A DNA stretch of 64,000 bases, from the NCBI RefSeq assembly GCF_900090315.1, contig NZ_FMHZ01000002.1, positions 4,496,501 through 4,560,500 of the forward strand, in the 5' to 3' direction. Both the position numbers and the translations under genes were made by a program. Positions 8,555 through 38,619 of the stretch are shown here, one piece after another. The notes beneath the pieces are model-generated. The model was not told where the DNA came from, ran no database searches, and worked only from the letters and a program-made list of their open reading frames with translations. The first letter of the stretch is position 1. Every line of letters begins with the position of its first letter. The DNA comes from Micromonospora citrea (lineage in GTDB: Bacteria; Actinomycetota; Actinomycetes; Mycobacteriales; Micromonosporaceae).

Positions 8555-9511
8555 TCAGTCGTTGGCGTGCAGCGCGGCGTTCAGCTCGATGCCCCGGCCG
8601 CTGCGCTGCCTCGCCTCCAGCGCGCCGGTCACCGAGTTGCGCCAGAACAGCAGCCCGTCCACCCCGGACAGCTCCCGGGCCTTGACCACCCGGCCGTCCG
8701 GCAGGGCGATCTTGGACGCGGCCGTCACGTAGCAGCCGGCCTCGACCACGCAGTCGTCGCCGAGCGAGATGCCCACGCCGGCGTTCGCGCCGATCAGGCT
8801 GCGCTCGCCGATGCGCACCTTCTCCGTGCCGCCGCCGGAGAGGGTGCCCATGATCGAGGCGCCGCCGCCGATGTCGGAGCCGTCGCCGACCACCACGCCC
8901 TGCACGATCCGGCCCTCGACCATCGAGGTGCCGAGGGTGCCGGCGTTGAAGTTGACGAAGCCCTCGTGCATGACGGTGGTGCCGGCCGCCAGGTGCGCGC
9001 CGAGCCGCACCCGGTCGGCGTCGGCGATCCGCACGCCCGAGGGCACCACGTAGTCGGTCATCCGGGGGAACTTGTCCACCCCGTGCACGGCCAGGTGGCG
9101 GCCGGCGGCCCGCTCGATGACCCGCAGCTCGTCGACCCGCTCCGGCGGGCACGGCCCGGCCGAGGTCCAGGCCACGTTCGCCAGCTTGCCGAAGATGCCG
9201 TCGAGGTTGAGCTCGTTCGGCCGCACCAGGCGGTGGGAGAGCAGGTGCAGCCGCAGGTACGCGTCCGCGGCGTCCTTGATCGGGTCGTCCAGCGAGCCGA
9301 TAACGGTGACCACCTGGACGGTACGCAGCCCGGGCAGCGCCCGGTCGCCGACCGCTCCCGGCGGCAGGTCCAGCACGTCCGCCTCGTCCTCGCCGGCGAC
9401 CAGCGGCAGCTCGCCGAGCCCCAGCTTGCCGGTCGGATACCAGGTGTCGAGCACCTGGTCGTCAGCGGTCACGGTGGCCAGGCCGATGCCCCAGGCGGAT
9501 TCGGACGTCAC
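8555..9511 (-). CDS. dapD: 2,3,4,5-tetrahydropyridine-2,6-dicarboxylate N-succinyltransferase
   Basis: The 318-residue product is the long actinobacterial DapD type. It has an N-terminal mixed domain and a hexapeptide left-handed beta-helix ([51 protein letters not shown]). It uses succinyl-CoA to succinylate tetrahydrodipicolinate in the diaminopimelate/lysine pathway, in the cytoplasm as a trimer. The GTG at 9511 has GAGAGGTGA just upstream. That site is also the end of a 32-codon mini-ORF (see 9516-9614). It is divergent from dapE, which acts two steps later in the same pathway. Confidence 0.95.
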
Positions 9512-9515
9512 GGAT

Positions 9516-9614
9516 TCACCTCTCGTTCGTGGCTGCGGGTCGCGGGCCCGCCCTGCGCCCCGCGCGACCGCCTCCCGCGGCGGCCACCCGGGCACGCTCG
9601 CTCCTCGCGCACAC
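9516..9614 (-). repeat. divergent copy of the V(S/C)ARSE mini-ORF element, before dapD
   Basis: On the minus strand GTGTGCGCGAGGAGCGAGCG (from 9614) matches the first 20 bases of the elements at 16386, 16440 and 24761 closely, and the end GCAGCCACGAACGA matches their ends. The middle is longer and different. It encodes 32 codons starting VCARSERA and stopping at 9516-9518, four bases before the dapD GTG; the stop codon is part of the dapD ribosome-binding site. Confidence 0.5.
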
Positions 9615-9626
9615 CCGACCTGACGG

Positions 9627-9632: not shown

Positions 9633-9639
9633 GCGAACC

Positions 9640-10713
9640 ATGGAGAACCCGCTGACCCCCGAGGTCCTGGCCGATCCGGTGGCGCTGACCCGTGCGCTGG
9701 TCGACATAGAGTCCGTGTCCCTCAACGAGAAGGCCATCGCCGACTGCGTGGAGGAGGTGCTGCGGGGTGTGCCGCACCTGACCACCTACCGGCACGGCAA
9801 CACCGTGATGGCGCGGACCGACCTGGGCCGGGACCAGCGGGTGGTGCTCGCCGGGCACCTGGACACGGTGCCGCTGAACAACAACTTCCCGTCGAGCATG
9901 CGTGGCGATCTGATGTACGGGTGCGGCACCTCGGACATGAAGTCCGGGGTGGCGTACGCGCTGCACCTGGCGGTGACCCTGCCGGACCCGCGCTACGACG
10001 TGACGTACTTCTTCTACGAGGCCGAGGAGATCGAGTCCAGGTACAACGGCCTCTTCCTGGTCGCCGAGGCGCACCCGGAGTGGCTGGAGGCGGACTTCGC
10101 GGTGCTGCTGGAGCCGACGTACGGCATCGTCGAGGCCGGCTGCCAGGGCACCATGCGCTCGGTCGTCACCACCACCGGCGTACGCGCCCACTCGGCCCGC
10201 TCCTGGCACGGCGTGAACGCCATCCACGCGGCGGGCGAGGTGCTCGACCGGCTGGCCCGGTACGAGGCCCGGCGCGTCACGATCGACGGCTGCGACTACC
10301 GGGAGGGGATGAACGCGGTCCGCATCCACGGCGGCGTGGCGGGCAACGTGGTCCCGGACCACTGCGAGGTCGAGGTCAACTACCGGTTCGCGCCGGACCG
10401 CACCCCGGCGGAGGCCGAGGCGCACCTGCGCGAGGTCTTCGCCGGCTTCGAGGTGCGGGTCACCGACTCGGCCGCCGGCGCCCCGCCCGGGCTGGAGGCG
10501 GCCCCCGCCCGCGAGTTCCTCGCGGCGGTCGGCGCCGCGCCGATCGGCAAGCTCGGCTGGACGGACGTGGCCCGGTTCGCGGCGATGGGCATCCCGGCCC
10601 TGAACTTCGGCCCCGGCGACCCGAACCTGGCCCACCACCCCGACGAGCACGTCGAGATCAGCAAGATCCGGGACGGCGCCGCCACACTGCACCGCTGGCT
10701 CGCCTCCGCCTGA
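9640..10713 (+). CDS. dapE: succinyl-diaminopimelate desuccinylase
   Basis: The 357-residue M20 metallopeptidase has zinc ligands and catalytic residues visible: His73 and Asp75 (GHLDTV), Asp99 (GTSDMK), Glu129-Glu130 (EAEEIES) and a C-terminal HHPDEHVEI with the last His ligand. It hydrolyses N-succinyl-LL-diaminopimelate to LL-diaminopimelate and succinate. The ATG at 9640 is set by the [10 protein letters not shown] beginning and the TACCGT box. The neighbours dapD and the LOG gene downstream form an arrangement also seen, from memory, in mycobacteria (Rv1201c-Rv1205). Confidence 0.94.
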
Positions 10714-10853
10714 CGGGCGCGCCCGGCCGGGCGTCGGCCGTTCCGGCGGTCGTGCCCCGGCCCGGTGCCGGCGTGCTGAGGGCTGAGTCCCGCCGAATGC
10801 CGCCGTGCTGACGGGCGCGCCGCGGTCACGGCGCCGGGGCTCGTCGCGCACGT

Positions 10854-10907
10854 GACCGGGAGGCCCGCGTCAACCGAGCGGTGCTCGGTAACGCGGGCCT
10901 CCCGGTC
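10854..10907. terminator. very long bidirectional terminator hairpin
   Basis: GACCGGGAGGCCCGCGT (10854-10870) pairs perfectly over 17 bp with ACGCGGGCCTCCCGGTC (10891-10907). The 20-base loop contains its own 6-bp stem (ACCGAG 10873-10878 / CTCGGT 10884-10889). It lies between dapE and the convergent small gene. Confidence 0.75.
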
Positions 10908-10928
10908 GACGTCGTGTCGTCGGCGCCG

Positions 10929-11093
10929 TCAGACGGCGGCGGACGTGTCGGCGGTGGGCCGGGCGTCGGTCGGGCCGCCCTGGTCGGCGGCAGACGGCTC
11001 CATCAGGCGGGCGCGGCGGCGCTCGGCCACCACGTCGCGGATCCGGCGCTGCATCTGCCGCCGGATCCGGATCATCTCGCTGTTGCTGATCAC
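10929..11093 (-). CDS. small basic hypothetical protein
   Basis: The 54-residue product starts from GTG 11093 with GGGGGAGGAG five bases upstream, one of the best ribosome-binding sites in the window. Residues 5-30 form an Arg-rich amphipathic helix (MIRIRRQMQRRIRDVVAERR), and the tail is polar. I do not recognise a family. The palindrome at 11127-11139 lies about 35 bases upstream, so it is probably regulated by the same factor as the 5.1 kb divergent region. It is too small for most gene finders. Confidence 0.65.
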   Translation of the reverse strand: MISNSEMIRIRRQMQRRIRDVVAERRRARLMEPSAADQGGPTDARPTADTSAAV

Positions 11094-11125
11094 GCTGACT
11101 CCTCCCCCGCAGGCGCGTGCCGGGG

Positions 11126-11145
11126 CATACCCGGTATGTGAATAG
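11126..11145. promoter_or_regulatory. palindromic operator-like site, copy 2 of CATACCCGGTATG
   Basis: CATACCCGGTATG (11127-11139) repeats the palindrome at 5091-5103 together with its flanks; 19 of 20 bases agree. It sits between the small gene (minus) and the LOG gene (plus). Confidence 0.6.
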
Positions 11146-11236
11146 TAAGACGTACGAGCGACAGATTTAGTTGCCCATGATCCGGAACTAATTTCCGCCG
11201 CTGGTCGCCCCGCACACCCGGCGGGTGCCGCTCCAC

Positions 11237-11242
11237 TACGGT
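11237..11242 (+). promoter_or_regulatory. -10 box of a leaderless promoter for the first LOG gene
   Basis: TACGGT lies seven bases before the ATG at 11250 and no ribosome-binding site is visible. Confidence 0.5.
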
Positions 11243-11249
11243 TGCTCCC

Positions 11250-12110
11250 ATGGGTCAGAGCAACGGGCGGGAGGCCGGCCGCGAGCCGGGACGGGAACGG
11301 CACCGGGGGGCCGTGACGCTGCGGCGGCAGGCGATCACGGACAGCACCGCCGACCAGCGCCTGCTCGACTCGCGGGGGCGCGGCGACTGGAAGACCAAGG
11401 ACGCCTGGCGGGCCCTGCGCATCCTCTCCGAGTTCGTCGAGGGCTTCGACACCCTCGCCGACCTGCCGCCCGCGGTGAGCGTCTTCGGCTCCGCGCGCAG
11501 CCGACCCGAGAGCCCGGAGTGCCGGATGGCCGAGGCGCTCGGCGCGGCCCTGGCCCGGGCCGGCTACGCGGTGATCACCGGCGGCGGGCCGGGCGTGATG
11601 GAGGCGGCCAACCGGGGCGCCAGCGAGGCCGGCGGGCTCTCCGTGGGGCTCGGCATCGAGCTGCCCTTCGAGCAGGGCCTCAACGACTGGGTCGACCTGG
11701 CCATCGACTTCCGCTACTTCTTCGCCCGCAAGACGATGTTCGTCAAGTACGCGCAGGCGTTCGTCGTGCTGCCCGGCGGGTTCGGCACCATGGACGAGCT
11801 CTTCGAGGCGCTCACCCTCGTGCAGACGGGCAAGGTCACCCGGTTCCCCGTGGTGCTGATGGGCGTCGACTACTGGCGTGGCCTGCTCGACTGGCTCCGC
11901 GACACCATGGCGGCCGACGGCAAGATCGGGCCGGTCGACCTGGAACTGATCTGCGTGACCGACGACATCGACTCGGCGGTCCGGCACATCGTCGAGGCCG
12001 AGGCCACCCTCTCCGCCGAGCAGGAGGCGGTCCGCGAGGAGGCGGTGGCGGTCACCGCAGCCGACCAGCGGGCCGCCGCCGAGGCGGGCGACGAGAGCCG
12101 GGAGCGCTGA
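11250..12110 (+). CDS. LOG family protein (TIGR00730), longer paralog
   Basis: The 286-residue Rossmann-fold protein contains ITGGGPGVMEAANRGA (about residues 109-124) and the LOG signature PGGFGTMDE (residues 175-183). The family includes cytokinin riboside 5'-monophosphate phosphoribohydrolases and more general nucleoside-monophosphate N-glycosidases; older annotations say lysine decarboxylase. It has about 60 extra N-terminal residues and a polar, Ala/Glu-rich C-terminal tail relative to the core fold. A second LOG gene follows after two bases, so the two are cotranscribed and may form different oligomers. Confidence 0.85.
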   Translation: MGQSNGREAGREPGRERHRGAVTLRRQAITDSTADQRLLDSRGRGDWKTKDAWRALRILSEFVEGFDTLADLPPAVSVFGSARSRPESPECRMAEALGAALARAGYAVITGGGPGVMEAANRGASEAGGLSVGLGIELPFEQGLNDWVDLAIDFRYFFARKTMFVKYAQAFVVLPGGFGTMDELFEALTLVQTGKVTRFPVVLMGVDYWRGLLDWLRDTMAADGKIGPVDLELICVTDDIDSAVRHIVEAEATLSAEQEAVREEAVAVTAADQRAAAEAGDESRER

Positions 12111-12112
12111 GC

Positions 12113-12658
12113 GTGGCGGCGATCTGTGTCTTCTGCGCCTCGTCGCGTACCCTCGACCGGCGCTGGCTGGACCTGGCGGCCGAGACGGGCGCGGAGATCG
12201 CCCGGCGCGGGCACACGCTCGTCAGCGGCGGCGGCTGCGTCGGCATGATGGGCGCGCTGGCGGACGGCGCGCGGGCGGCCGGCGGTCGGACGATCGGGGT
12301 GATCCCGCAGTCGCTGGTCGACCTGGAGGTCGCCGACCTGGCGTCGGACGAGTTGCTCGTCACCGACTCGATGGCCAGCCGCAAGACGGTCATGATCGAC
12401 AAGTCGGACGCGTTCGTCACCCTGCCCGGCGGCCTCGGCACCCTCGACGAGCTGTTCGAGGTCTGGACGACCGCGACGCTCGCCCTGCACGCGAAGCCGA
12501 TGGTGCTGGTCGACACCGACGGCTTCTACCGCCCGATGCTCGACTGGCTGGGCGCCCTGGCCGACCAGACCTTCCTCAAGCCCGCCGGCCTGGGCCTCCT
12601 CACGGTGACCGACACAGTCACCGCCGCCCTGGACGCCCTGGACCGCCAGCTGACCTGA
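12113..12658 (+). CDS. LOG family protein (TIGR00730), short paralog
   Basis: The 181-residue product is close to the usual length of LOG proteins. It begins VAAICVFCASS, has LVSGGGCVGMMGALADGA in the nucleotide-binding region and the PGGLGTLDE signature (residues 105-113) preceded by SRKTVMIDKSD. It probably releases ribose 5-phosphate from a modified or ordinary nucleoside monophosphate. The GTG at 12113 follows the previous stop by two bases, which suggests translational coupling. The in-frame extension upstream lies inside the first LOG gene and is rejected. Confidence 0.85.
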   Translation: MAAICVFCASSRTLDRRWLDLAAETGAEIARRGHTLVSGGGCVGMMGALADGARAAGGRTIGVIPQSLVDLEVADLASDELLVTDSMASRKTVMIDKSDAFVTLPGGLGTLDELFEVWTTATLALHAKPMVLVDTDGFYRPMLDWLGALADQTFLKPAGLGLLTVTDTVTAALDALDRQLT

Positions 12659-12720
12659 TCCGGGCGGGCGGAGCGGGGTGGCGGGGTGGGGGTGTCGTAC
12701 GGGCGTGGTGGGATGGGCAG

Positions 12721-15700
12721 ATGCAGGCGTACCGGCTGGTGCGCCGGCCTGCCGAGGCGGCCCGGGGGGACCGCAGGTCCGGCGGGCCGGCCCGGGGGGA
12801 CGGTCGGTCCGGTGGGCCGACCGAGGGCGAGCGGCGGTCCGATGGACCGGCCGGCGGTGACGCGCACCGTCGGGCGGCGCGGCTGACCGATCCGCACCAG
12901 GCGGAGGTCGTCGCGCACACCGACGGGCCCATGCTGGTGCTCGGCGGCCCCGGCACGGGCAAGACCAGCACCCTGGTCGAGGCGGTCGCCGCACGCGTGG
13001 CCGAGGGCGTCGACCCGGAGCGGATCCTGGTGCTCACCTTCAGCCGCCGGGGCGCCACCGCGCTGCGCCAACGGATCGAGGCGCGGGCGGCCGGCGACGG
13101 GCACCGGGTGCTGCGCGAGCCGCTGGTCCGCACCTTCCCGGCGTACGCCTTCGGGCTGCTGCGCCGCGCGGCGGCCGAGCGGGGCGAGCCGTCCCCGCGC
13201 CTGCTCACCGGCCCGGAGCAGGATCTCATCATCCGCGAGCTGCTCGACGTGGTCGGCGAGGAGCCCGACGACGACCCGGTGGGCTGGCCGGAGGACCTGC
13301 GCCCCGCGTTGCGCACCCGGGCCTTCGCCGCGCAACTGCGCGACCTGCTGATGCGCGCCGCCGAGCGCGGCGTCGGCCCCGTCGAGCTGGCCCGGCTGGG
13401 CGAGAAGCTCGGCCGCGCCGACTGGCCGGCCGCCGCGCGCTTCCTCCGGGAGTACGTGGCCGTGCTCGCCCTGCGCGACGTGAGCAACCGCGGCTCCGTC
13501 GCCTACGACCCGGCCGAGCTGGTCCGGGCCGCCACCGGGATGCTGCTCGACGATCCGGAGCTGCTCGCGGCCGAGCGCCGCCGGCTGGCCCACGTCTACG
13601 TCGACGAGCTGGCCGACACCGACCCCGCCCAGCAGGATCTGCTCGCGACGGTGGCCGGCGGCGGCAAGCACCTGGTCGCGTTCGCCGACCCGGATTCGTC
13701 CACGTACGCCTTCCGCGGCGCGGACCCCGCGGTGGTGACCACGTTCGCCCACCGCTTCCGCACCGCCTCCGGCGCGCCCGCGGCGCAGGTGGTGCTGACC
13801 ACCTCCTACCGGGCCGGCCCCCGGCTGCTCGCCGCGTCCGGCCGGCTGGCGCGGCGGCTGCGGGGCCCGGCCGCGCACCGAAGGCAGCATCCGCTGCCCG
13901 ACGCGCCGCCCGGCTCGGTGGAGGTGCGCACCTTCCGCTCGGCCACCAGCGAGGCGGCCTGGCTGGCCCACGCGTTGCGCGAGGCGCACCTGCTCGGCGG
14001 CGTGCCGTGGTCGGAGATGGCCGTGCTGGTGCGCTCCACCGGGCGGCAGCTGCCGTCGCTGCAACGCGCGTTGCACGCCGCCGGGGTGCCCACCGTGGTG
14101 CACGGGGAGGACCTGCCACTGCACCTGCAACCGGCGGTCGCGCCCCTGCTGCTCCTGCTGCGCTGCGCGCTGGAGCCCGAGCGGCTCGACGAGGAGGCCG
14201 CCGTCGCGCTGCTGCACTCGCCGCTCGGCGGCGCCGATCCGCTGGCCGAGCGGCGGCTGCGGCAGGGGTTGCGCGCCCTGGCGCTGGCCGCCGGCGACCG
14301 CCGGCCCTCCGGCGAGCTGATCGTCGAGGCGCTGCGGGACCCGGCCGAGCTGGCCGGGATCGAGCGGCGCTGGGCCGAGCCGGCGCAGACGGTCGCCGGC
14401 CTGCTGGCCGTGGCGCGGGAGACCGCCGCCCGGCCCGGCGCGACGGCGGAGGACGTGCTCTGGGCGGTCTGGCGGGCCAGCGGCCTGGCCGAGTTGTGGT
14501 CCGCGGCGATCGGCCGGGGCCAGACCGTGGCCGGCGAGGGCGACGTGGCCCGGCGCCGCCGCGCCGAGGCCGCCGACCGGAACCTCGACGCCGTGATGGT
14601 GCTCTTCGACGCGGCGGCCCGCTTCACCGACCGGCTGCCCGGCGCGCGCACCGAGGTCTTCCTCGACCACGTCCTCGCCCAGGACCTGCCGGCCGACACC
14701 CTCGCGCCGACCGCAGACCGGGGCGAGGCCGTGCGGCTGCTCACCGCGCACGCCGCGAAGGGGCTGGAGTGGGATCTGGTGGCGGTGGCGGGGGTGCAGG
14801 AGGGCGTCTGGCCCGACCTGCGGCTGCGCGGCAGCCTGCTCGGCTCCGAGCGGCTGGTCGACGTGCTCGCCGGCCGGGCGGCCGGCGCCGGCCGGGTGGC
14901 GACCCTGGTCGGGCAGACCTCGGCGCTGCTCGACGAGGAGCGGCGGCTGTTCCACGTGGCGGTCACCCGGGCCCGGCGGCGGCTGCTGGTCAGTGCGGTC
15001 GCCTCCGCCGCCGTGGGCGGCGACGACCACGAGGAGCAGCCCAGCCGATTCCTCTACGAGCTCGGCCCGACCGACCCGCCCCCGCCGGACGACGGCACAC
15101 CACCGCCTTCGGCCGATCCGGACGGCACACCACCGCCTTCGGCCGATCCGGACGGCACACCACCGCCTTCGGCCGATCCGGACGGCACACCACCGCCTTC
15201 GGCCGGTGCGGGCGGTGCACCACCGCCTTCGGCCGGTGCGGACGACGCGGGGCGGACGGCGGCCGGCCCGGACCGCGCCCGACGGTCTCCGGCCGGTCGG
15301 GGCGAGGCGGGATCGACCCCCGGCGACGACGGGTTGGCGGCGGTCGAAGAGGAGCCCGACCGGCCGACGACGCTGCCGGTGAGCCGGCCGCCCCGCGCGC
15401 TCACCCTGCCGGCGCTGGTGGCGGAGCTGCGTACCGCCGTCAGCGACCCGGCCGCGCCCTACGCCCGGCGGCAGGCCGCGGCGGCCGAACTGGCCCGCCT
15501 CGCCGCCGCCGGGGTGGCCGGCGCGCACCCGGACGACTGGTGGGGGCTGCGGCAGCTCTCCGACGACCGCCCGTTGGTCGAGGAGGGGGCGCCGGTCAGG
15601 GTCACCCCGTCGGCGATGGAGAGCGCGCTGCGGTGCAGCCTGCGCTGGCTGCTGGAGCGGCACGGCGGCAGCGCCCCGGCCAGCGCCGCCCAGGGCGTCG

Positions 15701-16389
15701 GCAACCTGGTGCACGCCGCCGCGATGCTCGCCGAGGACGCCAGCGTCGACCGGGGCGCGCTGCTGGACTACGTGGCGGCCCGGTTCGACGCGATCGAGCT
15801 GGCCGCCCGCTGGATGGTCGGCCCCGAGCGGACCCGCGCCGAGGCGATGGTCGACAAGCTGCTGCGCTGGCTCGCGGCCAACCCGCGCCGGCTGCTCGCC
15901 ATCGAGCACGAGTTCGCGGTCCGCCTGGACGACCCGCACCGGCCGGTCGAGCTGGCCGGCCGGGTGGACCGGCTGGAGGTCGACGCCGACGGCCGGCTGG
16001 TCGTGATCGACCTGAAGACCGGCAAGTCCACCGCGGTCACCGCGAACGACCTCGCCGAACACCCGCAGCTCGGCGCCTACCAGGCGGCGGTGGAGGCCGG
16101 GGCGTTCGCCGAGTTCGGCGAGGAGTCCGGCGGGGCGGCGCTGGTGCAGCTCGGCACCGGGGCCAGGGACGCGAAGGAGCAGAGCCAGCCGCCGGCCGGG
16201 GAGGGCCCGGAGGCCGGCTGGGCGACCGCGCTGGTGCGGCGCACCGCCGATACGATGGCCGCCGCCACCTTCGCCGCGGTCGCCAACTCGAAGTGCCGGG
16301 TCTGCCCGGTGCGGACGAGCTGCCCGGTGTCCGGGCAGGGGCGCCAGGTGGTCGAGCCCCCGACCACCCGTCCGCCGGAGCACCCGTGA
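12721..16389 (+). CDS. adnA: AdnA-type helicase-nuclease subunit (UvrD-like motor plus RecB-like nuclease)
   Basis: The 1222-residue product has Walker A GGPGTGK (Lys81), UvrD-type motifs [11 protein letters not shown] and FHVAVTRARRR in the second motor half, a linker with 10-residue repeats (about 791-840), and a C-terminal RecB-like nuclease with GRVDRLEVD, Asp1097 and Lys1099 (VIDLKTGK). Cys972 plus Cys1192-x2-Cys1195-x5-Cys1201 match the 4Fe-4S pattern of AddB-type nucleases. Motifs II and III are degenerate (DELAD; ADPDSSTYAFRGA). With AdnB it should resect DNA double-strand breaks. Mycobacterial AdnA is shorter (about 1050 residues); the extra length is mainly the repeat linker and a Gly/Arg-rich N-terminus (residues 15-48). 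Confidence 0.9.
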   Translation: MQAYRLVRRPAEAARGDRRSGGPARGDGRSGGPTEGERRSDGPAGGDAHRRAARLTDPHQAEVVAHTDGPMLVLGGPGTGKTSTLVEAVAARVAEGVDPERILVLTFSRRGATALRQRIEARAAGDGHRVLREPLVRTFPAYAFGLLRRAAAERGEPSPRLLTGPEQDLIIRELLDVVGEEPDDDPVGWPEDLRPALRTRAFAAQLRDLLMRAAERGVGPVELARLGEKLGRADWPAAARFLREYVAVLALRDVSNRGSVAYDPAELVRAATGMLLDDPELLAAERRRLAHVYVDELADTDPAQQDLLATVAGGGKHLVAFADPDSSTYAFRGADPAVVTTFAHRFRTASGAPAAQVVLTTSYRAGPRLLAASGRLARRLRGPAAHRRQHPLPDAPPGSVEVRTFRSATSEAAWLAHALREAHLLGGVPWSEMAVLVRSTGRQLPSLQRALHAAGVPTVVHGEDLPLHLQPAVAPLLLLLRCALEPERLDEEAAVALLHSPLGGADPLAERRLRQGLRALALAAGDRRPSGELIVEALRDPAELAGIERRWAEPAQTVAGLLAVARETAARPGATAEDVLWAVWRASGLAELWSAAIGRGQTVAGEGDVARRRRAEAADRNLDAVMVLFDAAARFTDRLPGARTEVFLDHVLAQDLPADTLAPTADRGEAVRLLTAHAAKGLEWDLVAVAGVQEGVWPDLRLRGSLLGSERLVDVLAGRAAGAGRVATLVGQTSALLDEERRLFHVAVTRARRRLLVSAVASAAVGGDDHEEQPSRFLYELGPTDPPPPDDGTPPPSADPDGTPPPSADPDGTPPPSADPDGTPPPSAGAGGAPPPSAGADDAGRTAAGPDRARRSPAGRGEAGSTPGDDGLAAVEEEPDRPTTLPVSRPPRALTLPALVAELRTAVSDPAAPYARRQAAAAELARLAAAGVAGAHPDDWWGLRQLSDDRPLVEEGAPVRVTPSAMESALRCSLRWLLERHGGSAPASAAQGVGNLVHAAAMLAEDASVDRGALLDYVAARFDAIELAARWMVGPERTRAEAMVDKLLRWLAANPRRLLAIEHEFAVRLDDPHRPVELAGRVDRLEVDADGRLVVIDLKTGKSTAVTANDLAEHPQLGAYQAAVEAGAFAEFGEESGGAALVQLGTGARDAKEQSQPPAGEGPEAGWATALVRRTADTMAAATFAAVANSKCRVCPVRTSCPVSGQGRQVVEPPTTRPPEHP
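15091..15240 (+). repeat. five in-frame 30-bp tandem repeats in the adnA linker
   Basis: Three perfect copies (15091-15120, 15121-15150, 15151-15180) encode DGTPPPSADP. A fourth (15181-15210) and a fifth (15211-15240) differ at a few bases. The unit is a multiple of three, so copy-number changes keep the frame. It lies between the motor and nuclease domains. Confidence 0.92.
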
Positions 16390-16484
16390 GCGCGAGGAGT
16401 GAGCTTGCGAGCCCCGCAGTCGTGAACCGAGACGGCACCGTGAGCGCGAGGAGTGAGCTTGCGAGCCCCGCAGTCGCGAACTGA
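16386..16484 (+). repeat. two tandem copies of the VSARSELA mini-ORF element, adnA-adnB junction
   Basis: GTGAGCGCGAGGAGTGAGCT begins at 16386 and again at 16440 (54-base offset). The first 35 bases of the copies are identical, and the match continues with one change through the GAAC at the copy's end. Together they form a 32-codon open frame (VSARSELASPAV, linker, VSARSELASPAVAN). Its GTG overlaps the adnA stop as GTGA, and its TGA (16482-16484) is nine bases before the adnB GTG. Confidence 0.85.
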
Positions 16485-16493
16485 GGCAGTGCG

Positions 16494-19400
16494 GTGACGC
16501 AGCCCGCCCTGTTCGGCACGGCGACCCCGGCGCCACGGGCGGCCGACGCCGGCCCCCGGTACACGCCGGTGGAGCTGGCGAGGCTGCTGCGGCTGCCGGC
16601 CCCCACCCGCGAGCAGGCGGCCATCATCGCCGCCCCCGTCGAGCCGCTGCTGGTGGTCGCGGGCGCCGGCTCGGGCAAGACCGAGACGATGGCGGCCCGG
16701 GTGGTCTGGCTGGTCGCCAACTCGTACGTGCGGCCGGAGCAGGTGCTCGGGCTCACCTTCACCCGCAAGGCCGCCGGTGAGCTGGCGCACCGGGTGCGTA
16801 CCCGGCTGGACCAGTTGGTGCGGCGGCTCGGGCGGCGGGGGCGCGACCCGCTCGACGACCCGCTGGCAGGGGAGCCGACGGTCTCCACCTACCACTCGTA
16901 CGCGGGCCGGATCGTCACCGAGCACGGGCTGCGGGCCGGCTACGAGCCGTCCACCCGGCTGCTCACCGAGGCGTCCCGCTGGCAACTTGTCGACCTGCTG
17001 GTACGCAACTACGACGGCGACATGTCCGAGGTGGACCGGATGCCGAGCACGGTCACCGACGCGGTGCTGGCGCTCGCCGGCGAGCTGGACGAGCACCTGG
17101 TCGACCCGGACGCGCTGGCCGCGTGGACGGGCCGCTTCTTCGCCGACGTGCAGGCGCGTCCGGGCCGGGTCTACGCCGACGTGCGCAGGGCGCTCGCCCT
17201 CCAGCAGACCCGGCTGAAGCTGCTCCCGCTGGTGCGCGCGTACGCCCGGCGCAAGGAGGACTTCGAGGCGATGGACTTCGCCGACCAGCTCGCGCGGGCG
17301 GCCCGGGTGGCCCGGGACCATCCCGGGGTCGGCGAGATCGAGCGGGACCGGTTCCGGGTGGTGCTGCTCGATGAGTACCAGGACACCAGCCACGCCCAGG
17401 TGGTGCTGCTCAACGCGCTCTTCGGCGGCGGGCACCCGCTGACGGCGGTCGGCGACCCCTGCCAGTCGATCTACGGGTGGCGGGGCGCCAGCGCCGGCAC
17501 GCTGGACCGCTTCCCCACGGAGTTCGCCCGCGCCGGCGGCGCGCCGGCCGAGGTGCTCAGCCTCACCACGAGCTGGCGTAACCGGCCGGAGATCCTCGGC
17601 GTGGCCAACGCCCTGGCCACGCCGCTGCGGGCCGCCGGCGCCCGGGTGCCGGAGTTGCGCGCCGCGATGAGCGTCGCCGACCCGGTGCCGCACCGCAGCG
17701 CCCGCGGCGCCGCCGGTGGCACCGTCCACTGCGCCCTGCTCCGGACGTACGCCGACGAGGCCGACTGGATCGCCGACAGCGTGCTGCACGCCTGGCGTGG
17801 GGCGGCGGGGATGCCCGGGGCGCTGCCCGAGCACATCCCGGTGCCGCTGCGCCCCACCACGGCCGTGCTCGTGCGGCTGCGCAGCCAGATCCCGGCGATC
17901 GAGTCGGCGCTGCGCGAGCGCGGGCTGCCCGTCGAGGTGGTGGGCCTGGGCGGCCTGCTGGACACCCCCGAGGTGCGGGACGTGGTGTGCACGCTGCGGG
18001 TGCTGGCCGACCCGACCGACGGGGCCGCGCTGCTGCGGCTGCTCACCGGGGCGCGCTGGCGGATCGGGCCCCGTGACCTGGTGGCCCTGCACCGCCGGGC
18101 GAAGGCCATCGCCGCGGCCCGGCGCAGGCTCGCCGACGACGGCACCCCGGAGATCACCCCGGACCTGCTCGACGAGGCCACCCTGGTCGAGTCGCTGGCC
18201 GACCTCGGCCCGGCGCAGGCGTACTCGGCGGAGGGCTACGCCCGGCTGCGTGCGTACGCCCGGGAGCTGGGCCTGTTGCGCTACCGGATGGACCAGTCCC
18301 TGCCGGAGTTGATCGCGGACATCGAGCGGACGATCGGCCTGGACGTGGAGGTGGCGGTGCGGGCCGGCCGGGACGGGGCCGGCGACGCCGGCCTGGCCCG
18401 GGGCCACCTGGACGCGCTCGGCGACGTCGCGGCCCGGTTCAGCGGGGAGACTCCGGGCGCCACCCTGTCGGGTTTCCTGGCCTATCTCGCCGCCGCCGAG
18501 GACGAGGAGCGTGGCCTCAGCCCGGGTGAGGTGGAGGTGGTCGAGGGCGCGGTGCAGATCCTCACCGCGCACGCCGCCAAGGGCCTGGAGTGGGACGTGG
18601 TCGCGGTGGCCGGCCTGAGCCGGGGCGTGTGGCCGGGGCCGGTCCGCAACTCCGACCACTGGCTGGGCGGGCTGGGCGTGCTGCCGTTCCCGCTGCGCGG
18701 CGACGCCGACGGGCTGCCCGAGCTGGGGCTGGACGAGGCCGAGGACCAGCGGGGGGTGGCCCGGGCGCTGGAGGACTTCACCGACGCCTGGCGGGCGCAC
18801 GACGAGCGGGAGGAGCGCCGGCTGGCGTACGTGGCGGTGACCCGGCCCCGGCGGCTGCTGCTCTGCTCCGGCCACTGGTGGGGGGAGGGCACGAAGCGGC
18901 CGCGCGGCCCGTCGGTGCTGCTGCGCGAGGTGCACGACGCCTGCCTGGACGGCGGCGCGGGGCACCTGGTCGACGAGTGGGCCCCGGAGCCGCCGGGCGA
19001 CGCGGTCAACCCGACCACCGAGGTGGTGCTGCGCGCCGAGTGGCCGGCCGACCCGCTTGGCGCCCGCCGCCCGGCGCTGGCCGAGGCGGCCGCGCTCGTT
19101 CGCCGCTTCCTCACCGACGGCGACGCCGCCCGTCGGCCTGCCAACTCCGAACAGCCGGTCGGCCCGGAACGCCCCGCTGGCTCGGTGCAGCCGGCCGGCC
19201 CGGAACGGCCGGTGGACGTGGCCGACGAGGCCGGGGGCGCGGTCGATCCGCTGGCCGACGACCCGGACGTCGCGCGGTGGCGGCGGGAGGCCGACCTGCT
19301 GCTCGCCGAGCGGGCCGAGCTGACCCGGCAGACCGGCGCGGTCGAGGTGGCCCTGCCCGGGCAGCTCTCGGTGACCCAGCTGGTGGCGCTTCGCCGGGAC

Positions 19401-19979
19401 CCGGCCGCGCTGGCCCGGGCGCTGCGCCGCCCGGTTCCCACCGAGCCGAGCCCGTACGCCCGCCGGGGCACCGCCTTCCACACCTGGCTGGAGCAGCGGT
19501 TCGGCGCGGACCGGCTGCTCGACCTGGACGAGCTGCCCGGCGCGGCCGACGCCGACGCCGCGCCCGACGAGGCGCTGGCCGAGCTCCAGGAGCGCTTCCT
19601 GGCCAGCGAGTGGGCCGACCGGGTGCCGGTCGAGGTGGAGGTGCCCTTCGCCACGGTCGTCGCGGGGGTGGTGGTGCGGGGCCGGATGGACGCCGTCTTC
19701 GCCCGCCCCGGCGGGCGCTTCGACGTGGTCGACTGGAAGACCGGCCGGCAGCCCTCCGGCCCGGCCGCCGACGTGGCCGCCGTGCAGCTCGCGGTCTACC
19801 GGCTGGCCTGGGCGGAGCTGGCCGGGGTGCCGGTGGAGCGGGTCGGCGCGGCGTTCCACTACGTGCGCGACGGCGTCACGGTTCGCCCGGCGGACCTGCT
19901 CGACGCCGACGGGCTGACCGCGTTGATCACTTCGGTGCCGGAAAATCCGGCAGACGGTGGCCATCCGGCGAATCCGTGA
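16494..19979 (+). CDS. adnB: AdnB-type helicase-nuclease subunit (lead motor plus nuclease)
   Basis: The 1161-residue product has Walker A GAGSGKT (Lys62), [14 protein letters not shown], intact motif II DEYQD (Asp293-Glu294), [25 protein letters not shown] and YVAVTRPRR, then a RecB-like nuclease with RGRMDAVF, Asp1080 and Lys1082 (VVDWKTGR) and QLAVYRLAW. It is the catalytically complete partner of AdnA in the ATP-dependent end-resection machine, acting at double-strand breaks. A variable Pro/Ala-rich linker (about residues 875-920) precedes the nuclease. The GTG at 16494 follows the mini-ORF element; the GAGGCAG before it is a weak ribosome-binding site, so coupling is likely. Confidence 0.92.
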
Positions 19980-20131
19980 TAGGTTGGTGGCGTTGCAGTT
20001 ATGGTTCCCAGAGACTCTGTGTGCGCCTGGAGGATTGTGGCCCAGGCGCTCTTTGTTGTGTCCGGAGTTCTCCGGGCGGGGCGACCAGAAGCGACAAGCG
20101 AGCCAGGCAGTTCCGCGTGGCGCGCTCCTCT

Positions 20132-20158
20132 TCGAGCCCACAACAGGTGTGGGCTCGA
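20132..20158 (+). promoter_or_regulatory. hairpin in the cold-shock mRNA leader
   Basis: TCGAGCCCACA (20132-20142) pairs perfectly with TGTGGGCTCGA (20148-20158) around a five-base loop. It ends about ten bases before the AAGGAGA of the cold-shock gene within a 205-base leader. Long structured leaders control translation of many cold-shock genes; this hairpin could act as a temperature-responsive or stabilising element (inference). Confidence 0.5.
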
Positions 20159-20184
20159 CGTTCCGTCAAGGAGACGAAACAAAA

Positions 20185-20388
20185 ATGGCTATTGGCACCG
20201 TCAAGTGGTTCAACGCTGACAAGGGCTTCGGCTTCATCACCCCGGACGGCGGCGGCGCCGACGTCTTCGCCCACTTCTCGGCGATCCAGACCTCCGGCTA
20301 CCGGAGCCTGGACGAGAACCAGCGGGTCGAGTTCGAGGTGACCCAGGGCCAGAAGGGCCCGCAGGCGGAGAACATCCGCCCGCTCTGA
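20185..20388 (+). CDS. cspA: cold-shock protein, CspA family
   Basis: The 67-residue single cold-shock domain has RNP1 KGFGFIT and RNP2 VFAHFS, with the usual start [10 protein letters not shown]. It binds single-stranded RNA and DNA and acts as an RNA chaperone. The ATG at 20185 has AAGGAGA upstream. A DEAD-box helicase follows 223 bases later, a pairing that makes sense for RNA remodelling at low temperature. The longer in-frame ORF starting at 19957 is leader, not coding. Confidence 0.95.
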
Positions 20389-20611
20389 TCTTCGGATCTC
20401 CACGTAACACCCACCGCGCCCTCCGGGCGTGGTGACGGAACCGGCCCGCCCCCGCCGTCGACCTGCGTACGCAGGCGGCGACGCGTGGCGGCGGGCCGGC
20501 CCGTACCCCTTTCGGTTCGTGCTTGTGAGTCATCCGCGGCCTCGCCCGCCGATGACAGCGCCGCCTCCGGCGCCCTCCCTCGACACGTGCCGCGTCGAGG
20601 AAGGCTTCCGC

Positions 20612-21937
20612 ATGACCACCGTCGTTCCGTCGTTCGCCCATACCGGGCTGGCCCCGGCGCTCCTCGCCGAGCTGGCCGCCCAGGGCATCACCGAGCCGTT
20701 CCCGATCCAGGCGGCGACCCTGCCCGACTCGCTCGCCGGTCGCGACGTGCTCGGCCGGGGCCGCACCGGCTCCGGCAAGACCCTCGCCTTCGGGCTCCCC
20801 GTGCTGTCCCGCACCGCCGGTCGCCGCGCCCGCCCGGGCCGTCCGCTGGCCCTGGTGCTGGTGCCGACCCGGGAACTGGCCCAGCAGGTCACCACCGCAC
20901 TCGACCCGTACGCCCGGGCGGTCGGCCTGCGCTGCGCCACCGTCGTCGGCGGCCTGTCGCTGCAACGCCAGGCGGACGCCCTGCGCGCGGGCGCCGAACT
21001 GGTGGTGGCCACCCCCGGGCGGCTGCACGACCTGATCAACCGCGGCGACGCCCGGCTGGACCAGGTCGCGATCACCGTGCTCGACGAGGCCGACCAGATG
21101 GCCGACATGGGCTTCCTGCCGCAGGTGACGAAGCTGCTGGAGCAGGTCGCCCCCGACGGGCAGCGGATGCTCTTCTCGGCCACGCTGGACGGCGGCGTGG
21201 ACAGGCTGGTCCGCCGCTTCCTCACCGACCCGGTCTCGCACTCGGTCGACCCGGGCACCGCGACCGTCACCGCGATGACCCACCACGTGCTGCACGTCGA
21301 CCCGGCGGACAAGCCGGCCGCGCTGACCCAGATCGCCGCCCGCGAGGGTCGCACCATCCTGTTCATGGGCACCAAGCACCGTGCCGACCGGGTCGCCCGC
21401 CAGTTGCTGGCCAAGGGCGTACGCGCGGCGGCGCTGCACGGCGGCAAGTCGCAGCCGCAGCGCACCCGGATCCTGGAGCAGTTCCGCAACGGGCAGGTGA
21501 CCGCGCTGGTCGCCACCGACGTGGCGGCCCGGGGCATCCACGTGGACGGGCTCGACCTGGTGGTCAACGTGGACCCGCCGACCGAGGCGAAGGACTACCT
21601 GCACCGGGGCGGGCGTACGGCCCGGGCGGGGGAGTCCGGCGCGGTGGTCACCCTGGTCCTGCCGGAGCAGCGCCGGGACGTGTCCCGGCTGATGGCCACC
21701 GCCGGCATCCGACCCGAGTCCGTCCAGGTGCGCCTCGGCGACGAGGCGCTGGCCCGGGTGACCGGCGCCCGCGAGCCGTCCGGCGTGCCGGTGACGATCG
21801 CGCCGCCCCCGCCGCGGCCCGCCGCGTCGGACGCCGGGCGGTCGGGCGGTCGCGCCGGCGAGGGCGGCCGGACCGCGCACCGCGCCTCGGGACGGTCCCG
21901 CCGCTCCCGACGTCCCCGCCCGCCGCGCGCGTCCTGA
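20612..21937 (+). CDS. DEAD/DEAH-box RNA helicase (RhlE/CsdA-like)
   Basis: The 441-residue product shows the Q motif (EPFPIQAATLP), motif I TGSGKT (Lys56), PTRELAQQ, motif II DEAD (158-161), SAT, and the C-terminal HRGGRTARAGESG. The last 70 residues are a basic, Ser/Arg-rich tail that may bind RNA. It should unwind RNA with ATP, in ribosome assembly or mRNA turnover. The ATG at 20612 is chosen for GAGGAAGG nine bases upstream; an earlier in-frame start at 20429 would add an arginine-rich segment before the Q motif. It probably shares cold control with cspA. Confidence 0.92.
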   Translation: MTTVVPSFAHTGLAPALLAELAAQGITEPFPIQAATLPDSLAGRDVLGRGRTGSGKTLAFGLPVLSRTAGRRARPGRPLALVLVPTRELAQQVTTALDPYARAVGLRCATVVGGLSLQRQADALRAGAELVVATPGRLHDLINRGDARLDQVAITVLDEADQMADMGFLPQVTKLLEQVAPDGQRMLFSATLDGGVDRLVRRFLTDPVSHSVDPGTATVTAMTHHVLHVDPADKPAALTQIAAREGRTILFMGTKHRADRVARQLLAKGVRAAALHGGKSQPQRTRILEQFRNGQVTALVATDVAARGIHVDGLDLVVNVDPPTEAKDYLHRGGRTARAGESGAVVTLVLPEQRRDVSRLMATAGIRPESVQVRLGDEALARVTGAREPSGVPVTIAPPPPRPAASDAGRSGGRAGEGGRTAHRASGRSRRSRRPRPPRAS

Positions 21938-22068
21938 CGCCCGCCCGTCCCGCGTCCCCGGCGCTCGGCGGCCGGGCCAGGGCGGCCGTGGCCGTGCCAG
22001 GGCTGCCGTGACCGACTGTGAGCAGTCGCTTCCCGTTCGACGTCTGAGCCCGGAATCAGCAGACATTG

Positions 22069-22101
22069 CGTCCGATCGGCGACTGTTCCGCCGATCGGAC
22101 G
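22069..22101. terminator. 13-bp perfect hairpin after the DEAD-box gene
   Basis: CGTCCGATCGGCG (22069-22081) pairs with CGCCGATCGGACG (22089-22101) around a seven-base loop. It may terminate the helicase transcript or sit in the leader of the small membrane gene. Confidence 0.5.
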
Positions 22102-22162
22102 TGGTGGAAGCTGGGGCGGGGGGAAGACCCGGGCGGAACCGCCCGGCGCAGGAGGGGTGACC

Positions 22163-22351
22163 ATGGCGGGTGACGTCGGCTCGGGCGCGGTGCGTGAACT
22201 GCTGCTGGTGTTCGCGGTCGCGGTCGCCGGGCTGCTGCTCGCCATGGTCGCGGTCTTCACGCCGTGGCACGCCAGCCCGGACGAGGCCGCGCCGGCCGCA
22301 CCGGTCGAGCTGCACAGCCCGACCGGAGGCCCGACCGCCATCGCCGGCTGA
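22163..22351 (+). CDS. small single-pass membrane protein
   Basis: The 62-residue product has a short N-terminal segment, one hydrophobic helix (LLLVFAVAVAGLLLAMVAVF, about residues 13-32) and a polar Pro-rich tail. AGGAGG lies seven bases before the ATG at 22163; the GTG at 22157 is too close to it. No family is recognised. It is convergent with the ABC permease gene with 39 bases between the stops. Confidence 0.6.
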   Translation: MAGDVGSGAVRELLLVFAVAVAGLLLAMVAVFTPWHASPDEAAPAAPVELHSPTGGPTAIAG

Positions 22352-22390
22352 CCCGGCGACGGCGGGGCGCTGCGCGCGGAGACGCACACG

Positions 22391-23275
22391 TCACTGACCC
22401 GCCTGGTCCAGCACGCCCCAGCGACGCCGGATCGCCTTGTCCGCCGCCCCGAACGCGGCGTCCACCGCCAGGCCCAGCACCAGGATCACGATCATCGTGG
22501 AGATCAGCCAGGGGGAGTCGGAGAGTTCCCGCGAGTAGGTCAGCTGCGCGCCCAGCGAGGTCTGCGAGATGCCGACCACGATCAGCTCGCCGGCCATCAG
22601 GCTGCGCCAGGAGAACGCCCAGCCCTGTTTGAGGCCGGCCACGATGACCAGCAGCGCGGCGGGCGCGATGACGTACCGGTACAGGTTGAGCCCTCGCGCG
22701 CCGAGGTTGCGGCCGGCGCGCAGCAGCAGCGGCGGCACGTAGTCCACGCCGGCGATCACGCCGTTGGCGATGGACGGCGCCGCGCCGAGCACCACCACGA
22801 AGAAGATCGCCTTCTCGCTCAGCTCGAAGAGCAGGATCGCCAGCGGGAACCACGCGATCGACGGCATGGTCTGCAGCGCGGTGATCATCGACCCGATGGC
22901 GGCCCGCAGGATCCGCGACCGGGCCACCGCGAGGCCGAGCAGCAGGCCCACGGCGACCGAGAAGAGGTAGCCGACGGCCGCCCGGCGCAGCGTCGTGGCG
23001 AGGCCGTCCCAGAGTTGGACGCCGCTGAGCTGCCGGAGCAGTTCCTGGCCCACGGAGGCCGGGCCGGGCACGGCGTACTCGGGCTTCCAACCCGTCCAGA
23101 CCACGACCTGCCAGGCGCCGACGGCGATGCCGAGCGCCGCCAGCTTCGGCCAGGTCGCGGCCCAGAGCCGGGCGGCCCGCGGCCGGTTCTCCGCGCGGCC
23201 GGCCAGCTCCAGGGCGTCGAGTCCCGAGATCTCCGTGTCGGTACGCGGAACGGCGGCGAGGGTGTCACCGGCCAT
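22391..23275 (-). CDS. ABC transporter permease, sulfonate/nitrate/taurine type (SsuC/TauC-like)
   Basis: The 294-residue product has about six membrane segments and a BPD_transp_1 domain. Typical phrases are WDGLATTLRRAAVGYLFSVA, LQTMPSIAWFPLAILLF and the cytoplasmic loop ARGLNLYRYVIAPAALL (EAA-like coupling site). It would form the membrane channel of an importer for sulfonates, taurine, nitrate or a related anion. No ATPase or matching binding-protein gene lies next to it, so it is an orphan here. The ATG at 23275 has only a weak ribosome-binding site. Confidence 0.85.
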   Translation of the reverse strand: MAGDTLAAVPRTDTEISGLDALELAGRAENRPRAARLWAATWPKLAALGIAVGAWQVVVWTGWKPEYAVPGPASVGQELLRQLSGVQLWDGLATTLRRAAVGYLFSVAVGLLLGLAVARSRILRAAIGSMITALQTMPSIAWFPLAILLFELSEKAIFFVVVLGAAPSIANGVIAGVDYVPPLLLRAGRNLGARGLNLYRYVIAPAALLVIVAGLKQGWAFSWRSLMAGELIVVGISQTSLGAQLTYSRELSDSPWLISTMIVILVLGLAVDAAFGAADKAIRRRWGVLDQAGQ

Positions 23276-23446: not shown

Positions 23447-23453
23447 CGATCAC

Positions 23454-24764
23454 GTGCCGACGCGGAGAGCCAGAATTCCAGCGACGAAATACCCGGTCGA
23501 GCGGTTCACCCTCGACAACGGCCTACGGGTGGTCCTCACCCCCGATCGCAGCGCACCGGTGATCGGGGTCGCGGTCGTCTACGACGTCGGCATCCGCTCC
23601 GAGCCGGAGGGGCGCACCGGCTTCGCCCACCTCTTCGAACACCTGATGTTCCAGGGCTCGGAGAACCTGGAGAAGCTCGCCCACTTCCGGCACGTGCAGG
23701 GCGCCGGCGGCACCTTCAACGGCTCCACCCACCTGGACTACACCGACTACTTCGAGACGTTGCCGAGCAACGCCCTGGAACGGGCGCTGTTCCTGGAGGC
23801 CGACCGCATGCGCGGCCCCCGGCTGACCGAGGAGAACCTGCGCAACCAGGTCGACGTGGTCAAGGAGGAGATCCGGGTCAACGTGCTCAACCGGCCGTAC
23901 GGCGGATTCCCCTGGCTGACCCTGCCGCCGGTCATGTTCGACACCTTCCCGAACGCGCACGACGGCTACGGCTCCTTCGTCGACCTGGAGTCGGCCACCG
24001 TCGCCGACGCCGCCGACTTCTTCCGCCGCTACTACGCCAGCGGCAACGCGGTGCTCGCCGTCAGCGGCGACATCGACGTCGCCGAGGCGACCACGCTGAT
24101 CGAGCGGCACTTCGGCGACGTGCCGGCCCGGCCCGCGCCGGAGCGGCCCGACTTCGCCGAGCCGGACCTGGCCGCGGAGCGGCGCACCTCGTACACCGAC
24201 AGGCTGGCGCCGCTGCCGGCGGTGGCCGGCGCCTGGCGCGTACCCGACCCGGTCACCGACTTCGCCGGCTACCTGCCGTACGTCGTGCTGGCCGAGGTGC
24301 TCACCGACGGCGACGCCTCCCGGCTGGTCGAGCGGCTGGTCCAGCGCGACCGGGCGGTCACCAGCCTGGGCGGGTACCTCAGCTTCATGGGCGACCCGTT
24401 CGACGTGCGGGACCCGACCGCGCTGCTGCTCCAGGCGCACCTGCCGCCGGGCGGGGACGTCGACAAGGTGCTGCGCACCATCGACGAGGAGCTGGACCGG
24501 CTGGCCACCGACGGGCTGACCGAGGGGGAGCTGGCCCGCACCCAGGCCCGGATGGCGACCCACCTGCTGCGGGACACCGACGCGGTGCTGGCCCGGGCGC
24601 TGCGGATGGCCGTGCTGGAGCAGCAGCGCGGCGAGCCGGGCCTGCTCAACGAGCTGCCCCGGCTGGTCGGCGAGGTCACCGAGGAACAGGTCCGCGCGGC
24701 CGCCGCCACCCTGCGGCCGGAGCGCCGCGCGTCCATCGAGGTCATCCCCGGAGGTGGCCGGTGA
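23454..24764 (+). CDS. M16 family zinc metallopeptidase, catalytic subunit
   Basis: The 436-residue product has the inverted zinc motif HLFEH (His59, Glu62, His63) and Glu138/139 in VVKEEI at the expected distance for the third ligand. The two-lobed M16 fold is about full length for one subunit. It is related to processing peptidases and to YmxG/PqqL types; no signal peptide is seen, so it probably works in the cytoplasm. It is the first gene of an overlapping series: its TGA overlaps the GTG of the element at 24761, followed by a non-catalytic partner and nudC. Confidence 0.92.
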   Translation: MPTRRARIPATKYPVERFTLDNGLRVVLTPDRSAPVIGVAVVYDVGIRSEPEGRTGFAHLFEHLMFQGSENLEKLAHFRHVQGAGGTFNGSTHLDYTDYFETLPSNALERALFLEADRMRGPRLTEENLRNQVDVVKEEIRVNVLNRPYGGFPWLTLPPVMFDTFPNAHDGYGSFVDLESATVADAADFFRRYYASGNAVLAVSGDIDVAEATTLIERHFGDVPARPAPERPDFAEPDLAAERRTSYTDRLAPLPAVAGAWRVPDPVTDFAGYLPYVVLAEVLTDGDASRLVERLVQRDRAVTSLGGYLSFMGDPFDVRDPTALLLQAHLPPGGDVDKVLRTIDEELDRLATDGLTEGELARTQARMATHLLRDTDAVLARALRMAVLEQQRGEPGLLNELPRLVGEVTEEQVRAAAATLRPERRASIEVIPGGGR

Positions 24765-24814
24765 GCGCGAGGAGTGAGCTTGCCAGCCGCGCAGCCGCGA
24801 ACGAAGGAAAGTCA
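24761..24814 (+). repeat. VSARSELA mini-ORF element, copy at the M16 gene junction
   Basis: GTGAGCGCGAGGAGTGAGCT at 24761 repeats the elements at 16386 and 16440; about 38 of 42 bases match in total. The GTG overlaps the upstream stop as GTGA. The frame (VSARSELASRAAANEGKS) runs without a stop into the next protein, whose own GTG stands at 24815. Confidence 0.85.
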
Positions 24815-26158
24815 GTGAGTACGACCGCACCGGCCGCGCCGCGGGCGCTGCCCCCGCTCGGCCCGAACCGCAGGCTCAAGCTGCCGAAGCAGGCCGAGCG
24901 CACGCTGGGCAACGGGCTGACCGTCATCGCCGTACGCCGGCCGGCGGTCCCCCTGGTCGAGCTGCGGCTCTGGATGCCCTTCGGCCGGGCCCACCTGGCT
25001 CGGGGCGCGATGCTCGCGCAGACCCTGCTCTCCGGCACGGAGACGATGACCAGCGTGCGGCTCGCCGCCGAGTTGCAGAAGGTCGGCGGCGGGCTGTCCG
25101 CCGGGATCGACCCGGACCGGCTGATGCTCTCCGGCACCGGCCTGGTCACCGGGCTGGACCGGATGCTGGAGATTCTCGCCGAGGTGCTCACCGGCGCGAC
25201 CTATCCGGACGACGACGTGGCCACCGAGCGGGACCGGCTGGTCGACCGGATCCAGGTCGCGCAGAGCCAGCCCGGGCACCTGGCCCGCACCGCCCTGCTC
25301 AAGCGGGTCTACGGCAAGCACCCGTACGCGGTGCAGACCCCCGACCCGGACGCGGTCCGCGCGGTCCGGCCGGGCGCCCTGCGCACCCTGCACGCCCAGC
25401 GGGTGCATCCCGCCGACGCGGTGCTGGTGCTGGTCGGCGACGTGCAGCCGGAGCGGGCGCTGGACGCCGCCGAGAAGGCCCTGTCCGGGTGGAACGGCGC
25501 CGGGCACACCGCCGACCTGCCGCCCGCCCCGGCGCTGGAGCCCGGGCCGCTGCTGCTGGTCGACCGGCCGGGTTCGGTGCAGTCCTCGCTGCGGGTCGCG
25601 CTGCCGGCGGTGCCCCGCACCCATCCCGACCACGCCGCGCTGCAACTGGCCAACCTCGTCTTCGGCGGCTACTTCTCCTCCCGCTGGGTGGAGAACATCC
25701 GCGAGGACAAGGGCTACACGTACGGGCCCCACTCGCTCGTCGAGCACTCGGTCGCCGGGTCGGTGCTGGTCGCCGCCGCCGAGGTGGCCACCGAGGTCAC
25801 CGGGCCGGCGCTGCTGGAGACGACGTACGAGCTGGGCCGGCTGGCCACCCTCCCGCCCGGCGAGGACGAGCTGGAGCAGGCCCGCCGGTACGCCCTCGGC
25901 ACCCTCCAGCTCGGCATGTCCACCCAGGCCGGGCTCGCCTCGCTGACCAGCGCGTACGCCGGCAACGGGCTGCGCCTGGACTTCCTGGCCGAGCACGCCG
26001 CCCGGCTGGCCGGGGCCACCGTGGCCGACGTGGCCGAGGCGGCGGCCCGCTACCTCGCCCCGGCCCGGGCGGTGACGGTGGTGCTGGGCGACGCCGAGCG
26101 GATCGCCCCCCAGTTGGCGGCGCTCGCCCCGGTCGTCACGGAGCCGGCGCGGCCGTGA
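24815..26158 (+). CDS. M16 family peptidase, non-catalytic partner subunit
   Basis: The 447-residue product has the M16 fold but not HXXEH: the corresponding place reads AHLARGAML. It keeps the conserved second-lobe phrase RWVENIREDKGYTYGPHS, including the Arg/Tyr residues that in processing peptidases help bind substrate. Such inactive partners complete the active site chamber of heterodimeric M16 enzymes. I chose GTG 24815 (AAGGAAAG nearby); starting at GTG 24761 would add 18 residues encoded by the repeat element, and that alternative cannot be excluded. Its stop overlaps nudC (GTGA). Confidence 0.88.
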   Translation: MSTTAPAAPRALPPLGPNRRLKLPKQAERTLGNGLTVIAVRRPAVPLVELRLWMPFGRAHLARGAMLAQTLLSGTETMTSVRLAAELQKVGGGLSAGIDPDRLMLSGTGLVTGLDRMLEILAEVLTGATYPDDDVATERDRLVDRIQVAQSQPGHLARTALLKRVYGKHPYAVQTPDPDAVRAVRPGALRTLHAQRVHPADAVLVLVGDVQPERALDAAEKALSGWNGAGHTADLPPAPALEPGPLLLVDRPGSVQSSLRVALPAVPRTHPDHAALQLANLVFGGYFSSRWVENIREDKGYTYGPHSLVEHSVAGSVLVAAAEVATEVTGPALLETTYELGRLATLPPGEDELEQARRYALGTLQLGMSTQAGLASLTSAYAGNGLRLDFLAEHAARLAGATVADVAEAAARYLAPARAVTVVLGDAERIAPQLAALAPVVTEPARP

Positions 26159-38613: not shown

Positions 38614-38619
38614 CCTCCC

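Follow-up and report, generated by a model that had tools for sequence, protein, structure and literature searches.

Mycobacterial interspersed repetitive units (MIRU), reportedly described by Supply et al. in 1997, are the known repeats that most resemble the element analyzed here. One review (PMC3914561) presents MIRU as short repeats of 46 to 101 bp that occupy many dispersed loci and form tandem arrays, and a second (PMC12548453) gives start codons as their insertion sites and an internal ORF coupled at -4 nt. Measured against these descriptions, the element found between adnA and adnB in the window, by which we mean the whole 64-kb stretch of DNA that was analyzed, is MIRU-like in being short (mostly 54 to 62 nt), in lying at dozens of dispersed loci, often in tandem and in variable copy number, and in having inserted at start codons, which is visible as empty orthologous sites at two junctions. 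The internal ORF with its -4 nt overlap is a likeness of architecture only, exact at 38 of 51 junction groups and in phase at 43 of 51, and absent from the copies in the window. Unlike MIRU, the element belongs to another bacterial family: a sequence-only model built from the host copies found no match in 24 genomes from other families of the order, and a draw of 298 genomes from the order gave a single weak match in the sole matching genome outside the host's family. Because strong matches occur only in that family, we regard the element as MIRU-like in its working and not as MIRU by descent. It also resembles MITEs in being small and dispersed and in having no transposase gene of its own, but no terminal inverted repeats were seen by eye, and resemblance between its flanks is partial and found mainly in arrays.

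The reading that we favor, with a probability of about 0.83, is that of a dispersed repeat of ~56 nt with MIRU architecture, inserted at DTGA starts, which relays the ribosome through a mini-ORF and whose insertion is nearly neutral. It would be a translationally transparent repeat of the Micromonospora family, of a kind already known, and it suggests that spread via translational transparency, the lifestyle of MIRU, is not confined to mycobacteria. No earlier description of this repeat family was found in the open-licence literature, which was covered largely as titles and abstract openings; there, neither exact core strings nor the combination of mycobacterial interspersed repetitive with Micromonospora gave a match, and MIRU-like returned only unrelated work.

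Copies in the window and anatomy of the unit

Two tandem copies of 54 nt, with a 54-nt spacing and 89% identity, fill the space between adnA (12721..16389, plus strand, taken from the ORF list) and adnB (16494..19979, plus strand, with its GTG start at 16494). Both genes encode proteins with UvrD-type helicase and PD-(D/E)XK nuclease domains, a content that fits the names given to them by an earlier, sequence-only reading. Copy 1 (16386..16439, plus strand) contains the adnA stop TGA (16387-16389) in its initial GTGA, and the end of copy 2 (16440..16493, plus strand) directly abuts the adnB GTG. The mini-ORF (16386..16484, plus strand) stays open for 32 codons through both copies, and its TGA, ending at 16484, lies 9 nt short of adnB. 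The earlier reading had described the tandem pair, the overlap of the first GTG with the adnA stop and the extent of the open frame just as they were found; its unit of 42 to 45 bp held as a repeat and not as a length, since units mostly measure 54 to 62 nt, with ~47 conserved nt and a variable end of 9 to 11 nt. The window's own copies are atypical, being 54-nt variants in phase 0 without the exact relay (NTGA handoff) described below.

A third 54-nt copy (24761..24814, plus strand) lies between two M16 peptidase genes. The TGA of the upstream gene (23454..24764, plus strand) sits in the GTGA of the element, whose frame continues in frame into the downstream gene (24815..26158, plus strand, start GTG 24815). 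A diverged copy with extra sequence (9512..9614, minus strand) stands between divergent genes ahead of dapD (8555..9511, minus strand; TIGR03535 above cut-off). The recurrence that had been noted at these two places is real: a 20-mer of the element is exact at 24761 and has 3 mismatches at 9614-9595 on the minus strand, and four matches occur in the window against 0.01 expected by chance.

Units generally start with GTGA, hold the mini-ORF and a Shine-Dalgarno (SD)-like stretch, and run up to the next start codon. The GTGA is supplied by the element itself; its TGA usually terminates the upstream gene and its GTG opens the mini-ORF, which in most cases closes on a TGA overlapping the next start (GTGA or ATGA), with the SD-like stretch near the 3' end lying ahead of that start. 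In a set of 30 type-A units, each 56 nt long and from a different junction, the conserved core spans ~47 nt and starts GTGAGCGCGAGGAGTGAGC, whereas the last 11 nt, where the SD-like stretch usually lies, vary by 28 to 33%. Within nt 4-45 of these units, differences from the consensus amount to 1.2, 4.5 and 1.7% at codon positions 1, 2 and 3, which agrees with the sequence-only claim that third positions are as conserved as the others. Since third positions are no freer than the rest, this pattern points to recent copying of DNA and not to selection on the peptide. Peptide selection was rejected on these grounds together with a consensus GC3 of 0.78 and a frame shift inside the mini-ORF of subfamily B, and the peptide that the mini-ORF would encode probably does not matter. 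The idea that RNA structure is what is conserved was likewise rejected: the folds of six elements gave z between -1.3 and 0.9, none markedly better than shuffles.

Type B carries ~5 nt extra in mid-unit and type C has a different middle, both mostly as 59-nt units. In last units, the indels that separate subfamily A (mostly 56 nt) from B and C (mostly 59 nt) preserve phase: a length of 2 modulo 3 is found in 68/88 distinct last units of A, 14/14 of B and 4/4 of C, compared with 34/56, 3/6 and 3/5 internal units, respectively. In 161 of 170 distinct units, the frame stays open as far as the following start.

Position relative to genes and a possible ribosome relay

Gene context was read by a frame caller based on codon usage, with 86 host ORFs as its training set, for 123 arrays (209 copies in all) found in the host and in 30 further genomes of the genus. 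Because the arrays of the relatives were drawn from the best-scoring matches, they lean to young copies; the 29 host arrays comprise 28 of 34 sites and one further split array, all passing the nhmmer threshold, with the dapD copy left out. An upstream gene was called in 105 of the 123 arrays and is in the sense orientation in 103 of those. In 85/123 arrays, this gene stops at the TGA inside the element's GTGA, against 59/1401 control GTGA sites, and in five further arrays it ends at the second TGA of the element; in the host only, the count is 18/29, the adnA tail having been missed by the caller and its stop taken from the ORF list. Of the 118 arrays with a called downstream gene across the host and 30 genus genomes, 117 have that gene in the sense orientation. 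The stronger wording, that copies always lie directly before a start in the sense orientation, holds for 27 of 29 host arrays, which face a same-strand downstream gene, and gives way at one antisense array and one without a called gene. The antisense exception is a four-copy array (L076:2895-3107) that is antisense to the called genes on both sides and lacks a GTGA start.

When the arrays were grouped by downstream protein, leaving out of the phase set the 6 of 123 without a called sense downstream gene, 51 distinct junctions resulted. The upstream stop lies in the GTGA at 36 of them. The 43 groups in phase are those with phase 2 modulo 3, which allows the mini-ORF to finish on the following start (binomial against 1/3, 8e-14); phase 0 occurs in 7 and phase 1 in 1. 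Under the start choice used, 13/51 groups lack the exact NTGA handoff: 5 are in-frame fusions and 8 are scattered, 3 of the latter owing to start choice at an earlier in-frame GTG. Genes behind an in-frame copy (5/51) may be given false N-terminal extensions from the element by annotators. Spacings between copies inside arrays show phase 2 less frequently (50/86, with 27 in phase 0 and 9 in phase 1), and phase could in part be inherited from master copies instead of being selected. SD-like matches of at least 4 nt precede the first GTG in 36/51 groups and the downstream start in 46/51, compared with 35% of random positions.

Beyond the genus, 20 regions from five genera hold 21 arrays, of which 18 of the 19 with a called downstream gene are in phase 2 and 14 of 21 have the exact NTGA handoff. 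Upstream overlap is rare there (4/21 arrays, with no upstream gene called in 11/21), and the high phase count beside the low overlap count suggests that coupling to the downstream start is the more general feature, in keeping with the start-codon insertion and the -4 nt coupling described for MIRU (PMC12548453).

These arrangements lead us to propose a relay. After insertion, the SD of the upstream tail would stand before the GTG of the element and the element's own SD-like stretch before the downstream start. A ribosome finishing the upstream gene could then restart on the mini-ORF with the help of the SD that remains in the upstream tail, and restart again on the downstream gene after the mini-ORF; tandem copies would be the same relay repeated. 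We infer that the mini-ORF couples the upstream to the downstream gene in this way and that, because the ribosome would be relayed, insertion would be nearly neutral for expression and thus survive.

Orthologous junctions and genomic range

The adnA/adnB set comprised 81 sequences (80 loci and the window), of which 3 were not parsed. Among the 78 others, 34 are without insert and show a direct 4-nt stop/start overlap (ATGA, GTGA or TTGA), while the remainder hold the element, its remnants or an unrecognized spacer (33 filled and 11 other). The closest locus, in M. sp. C31 with 93% identity in AdnB, is empty, as are 6/6 outgroup loci; M. tulbaghiae on one side and M. marina and M. chalcea on the other provide a filled/empty comparison. 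On a quick AdnB DNA tree, in which 22 of 75 inner branches are weakly supported, filled and empty states require at least 13 changes, a count that is blind to gain versus loss and leaves out the 11 other rows; all three states together give 22 changes. This soil-bacterial system, in which one junction is available in 34 empty and 33 filled versions, nearly all in named strains, makes coupling and movement directly testable.

At the peptidase junction, loci came from 30 of 41 genomes, 5 of the 30 had no anchor motif match, and 25 genus loci were left. Thirteen of these are empty, all 13 as DTGA overlaps, and 12 hold the element or a remnant as judged by eye. The empty junctions have an SD (GGAGG) in the upstream tail ahead of the DTGA, and one pair, L282 with two copies and L279 empty, has an identical downstream start region. 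In L265 and L289, a truncated element seems to enter the peptidase gene start and may be taken up as coding sequence.

Element-free orthologues of both junctions consist of a bare DTGA overlap, so the element appears to insert at coupled stop/start overlaps: its sites would be start codons of the form DTGA, in the host genus mostly where an upstream TGA overlaps the downstream start. These comparisons indicate that it is not required at either junction; at adnA/adnB, 34 of 78 junctions do with a direct 4-nt overlap instead. The earlier proposal that the element couples adnA to adnB is thus better put as insertion into a junction that was already coupled, in a way that leaves coupling possible. 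Of a mobile or selected translation-coupling or leader module, the part that is well supported is a dispersed module with translation-coupling architecture, on the strength of its copy number, the empty sites in orthologues, and the phase and stop/start overlap at its junctions.

In the 7.2-Mb host genome, the sequence-only model finds 60 copies at E<=0.01, or 61 copies at 34 sites, in arrays of 1 to 4, when the dapD copy is included. All 37 genomes searched within the genus have the element, with 16 to 70 matches each, which are lower bounds from 100 candidates scored per genome. In the host's family, 75/160 genomes match, spread over 23 of 44 genera. The draw from the order has 46/298 matching genomes, namely 44 of the host genus, 1 of another genus of the family and 1 outside it, and at least 9 of the 252 genomes without a match belong to the host's family. 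A draw from the class has 7/246, namely 3 of the host genus and 4 outside the family, the latter with 1 or 2 weak matches each. As these wide searches scored 20 to 100 candidates per genome under strict filters, the counts are lower bounds, and weak relatives may be missed. In the genomes searched, strong matches are confined to the host's own family. By AdnB, the named relatives are Micromonospora, Salinispora and Verrucosispora and, further off, Plantactinospora, Asanoa and Phytohabitans, which makes it very probable that the host is itself a Micromonospora.

Other explanations and means of movement

A selected regulatory leader, whose mini-ORF is retained because it adjusts the dosage of the downstream gene, would account for a downstream phase conserved across subfamilies and in other genera and for the SD-like stretch ahead of the downstream start. 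We nevertheless consider it unlikely, as the element is patchy at the same junction (empty at 34/78 adnA/adnB and 13/25 peptidase loci), its host genes are as diverse as 51 groups by downstream protein, and at adnA/adnB diverged as well as shortened copies are frequent.

Local duplication or gene conversion of ribosome-binding regions, with no mobile unit inserted, is very improbable. It would explain why, at a given site, the ~7 nt immediately ahead of the downstream start are similar to the ~7 nt immediately ahead of the element, and arrays do appear to have grown through tandem copying. Over the 45 of 51 junction groups used, flank resemblance at the same site is 0.48 against 0.36 over 8 nt, a value reached by 0/2000 shuffles. 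However, the 29 groups with arrays show the resemblance clearly and the 16 with single copies show it weakly (135/2000 shuffles reach it in the latter), and because nt 4-45 of 30 units at 30 unrelated junctions are only 1 to 5% off consensus and empty sites are clean overlaps, the core must come from elsewhere. Both microhomology-driven amplification and a short target duplication would fit the flanks; target-site duplication is suggestive in arrays and not established in single copies.

That the element is a REP/BIME-type repeat whose mobility depends on a REP-associated tyrosine transposase can practically be set aside, as it is short, extragenic, dispersed and high-copy like REP/BIME but has no strong stem-loop in the six folded sequences, keeps nearly always one orientation relative to genes, sits on stop/start codons, and has no match to the Y1 transposase (PF01797) in its host genome, while 5 of 14 control genomes do.

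The dispersed, translationally transparent repeat that we favor carries no gene for its own mobility. Carriage by phage was rejected, with 0 exact matches of one 26-mer of the element in viral contigs. It is doubtful that the insertion machinery recognizes translation start regions, for instance via an intermediate tied to mRNA or the ribosome or via microhomology to an SD plus start, as opposed to random insertion followed by selection. If it did, clean DTGA insertion, sense orientation and intergenic scarcity elsewhere would amount to targeting, and mycobacterial MIRUs might move likewise.

The window has further features of its own. Rfam models gave one weak match in window positions 9000-26000, a cspA thermoregulator at 20143-20438, after adnB (38.8 bits against a gathering score of 78), which is possibly due to chance and not related to the element. 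A 30-nt tandem repeat lies within the adnA coding region at 15061-15300, and three tandem copies of a sequence, with a 61-nt spacing and 94 to 95% identity, lie at 38618-38847.
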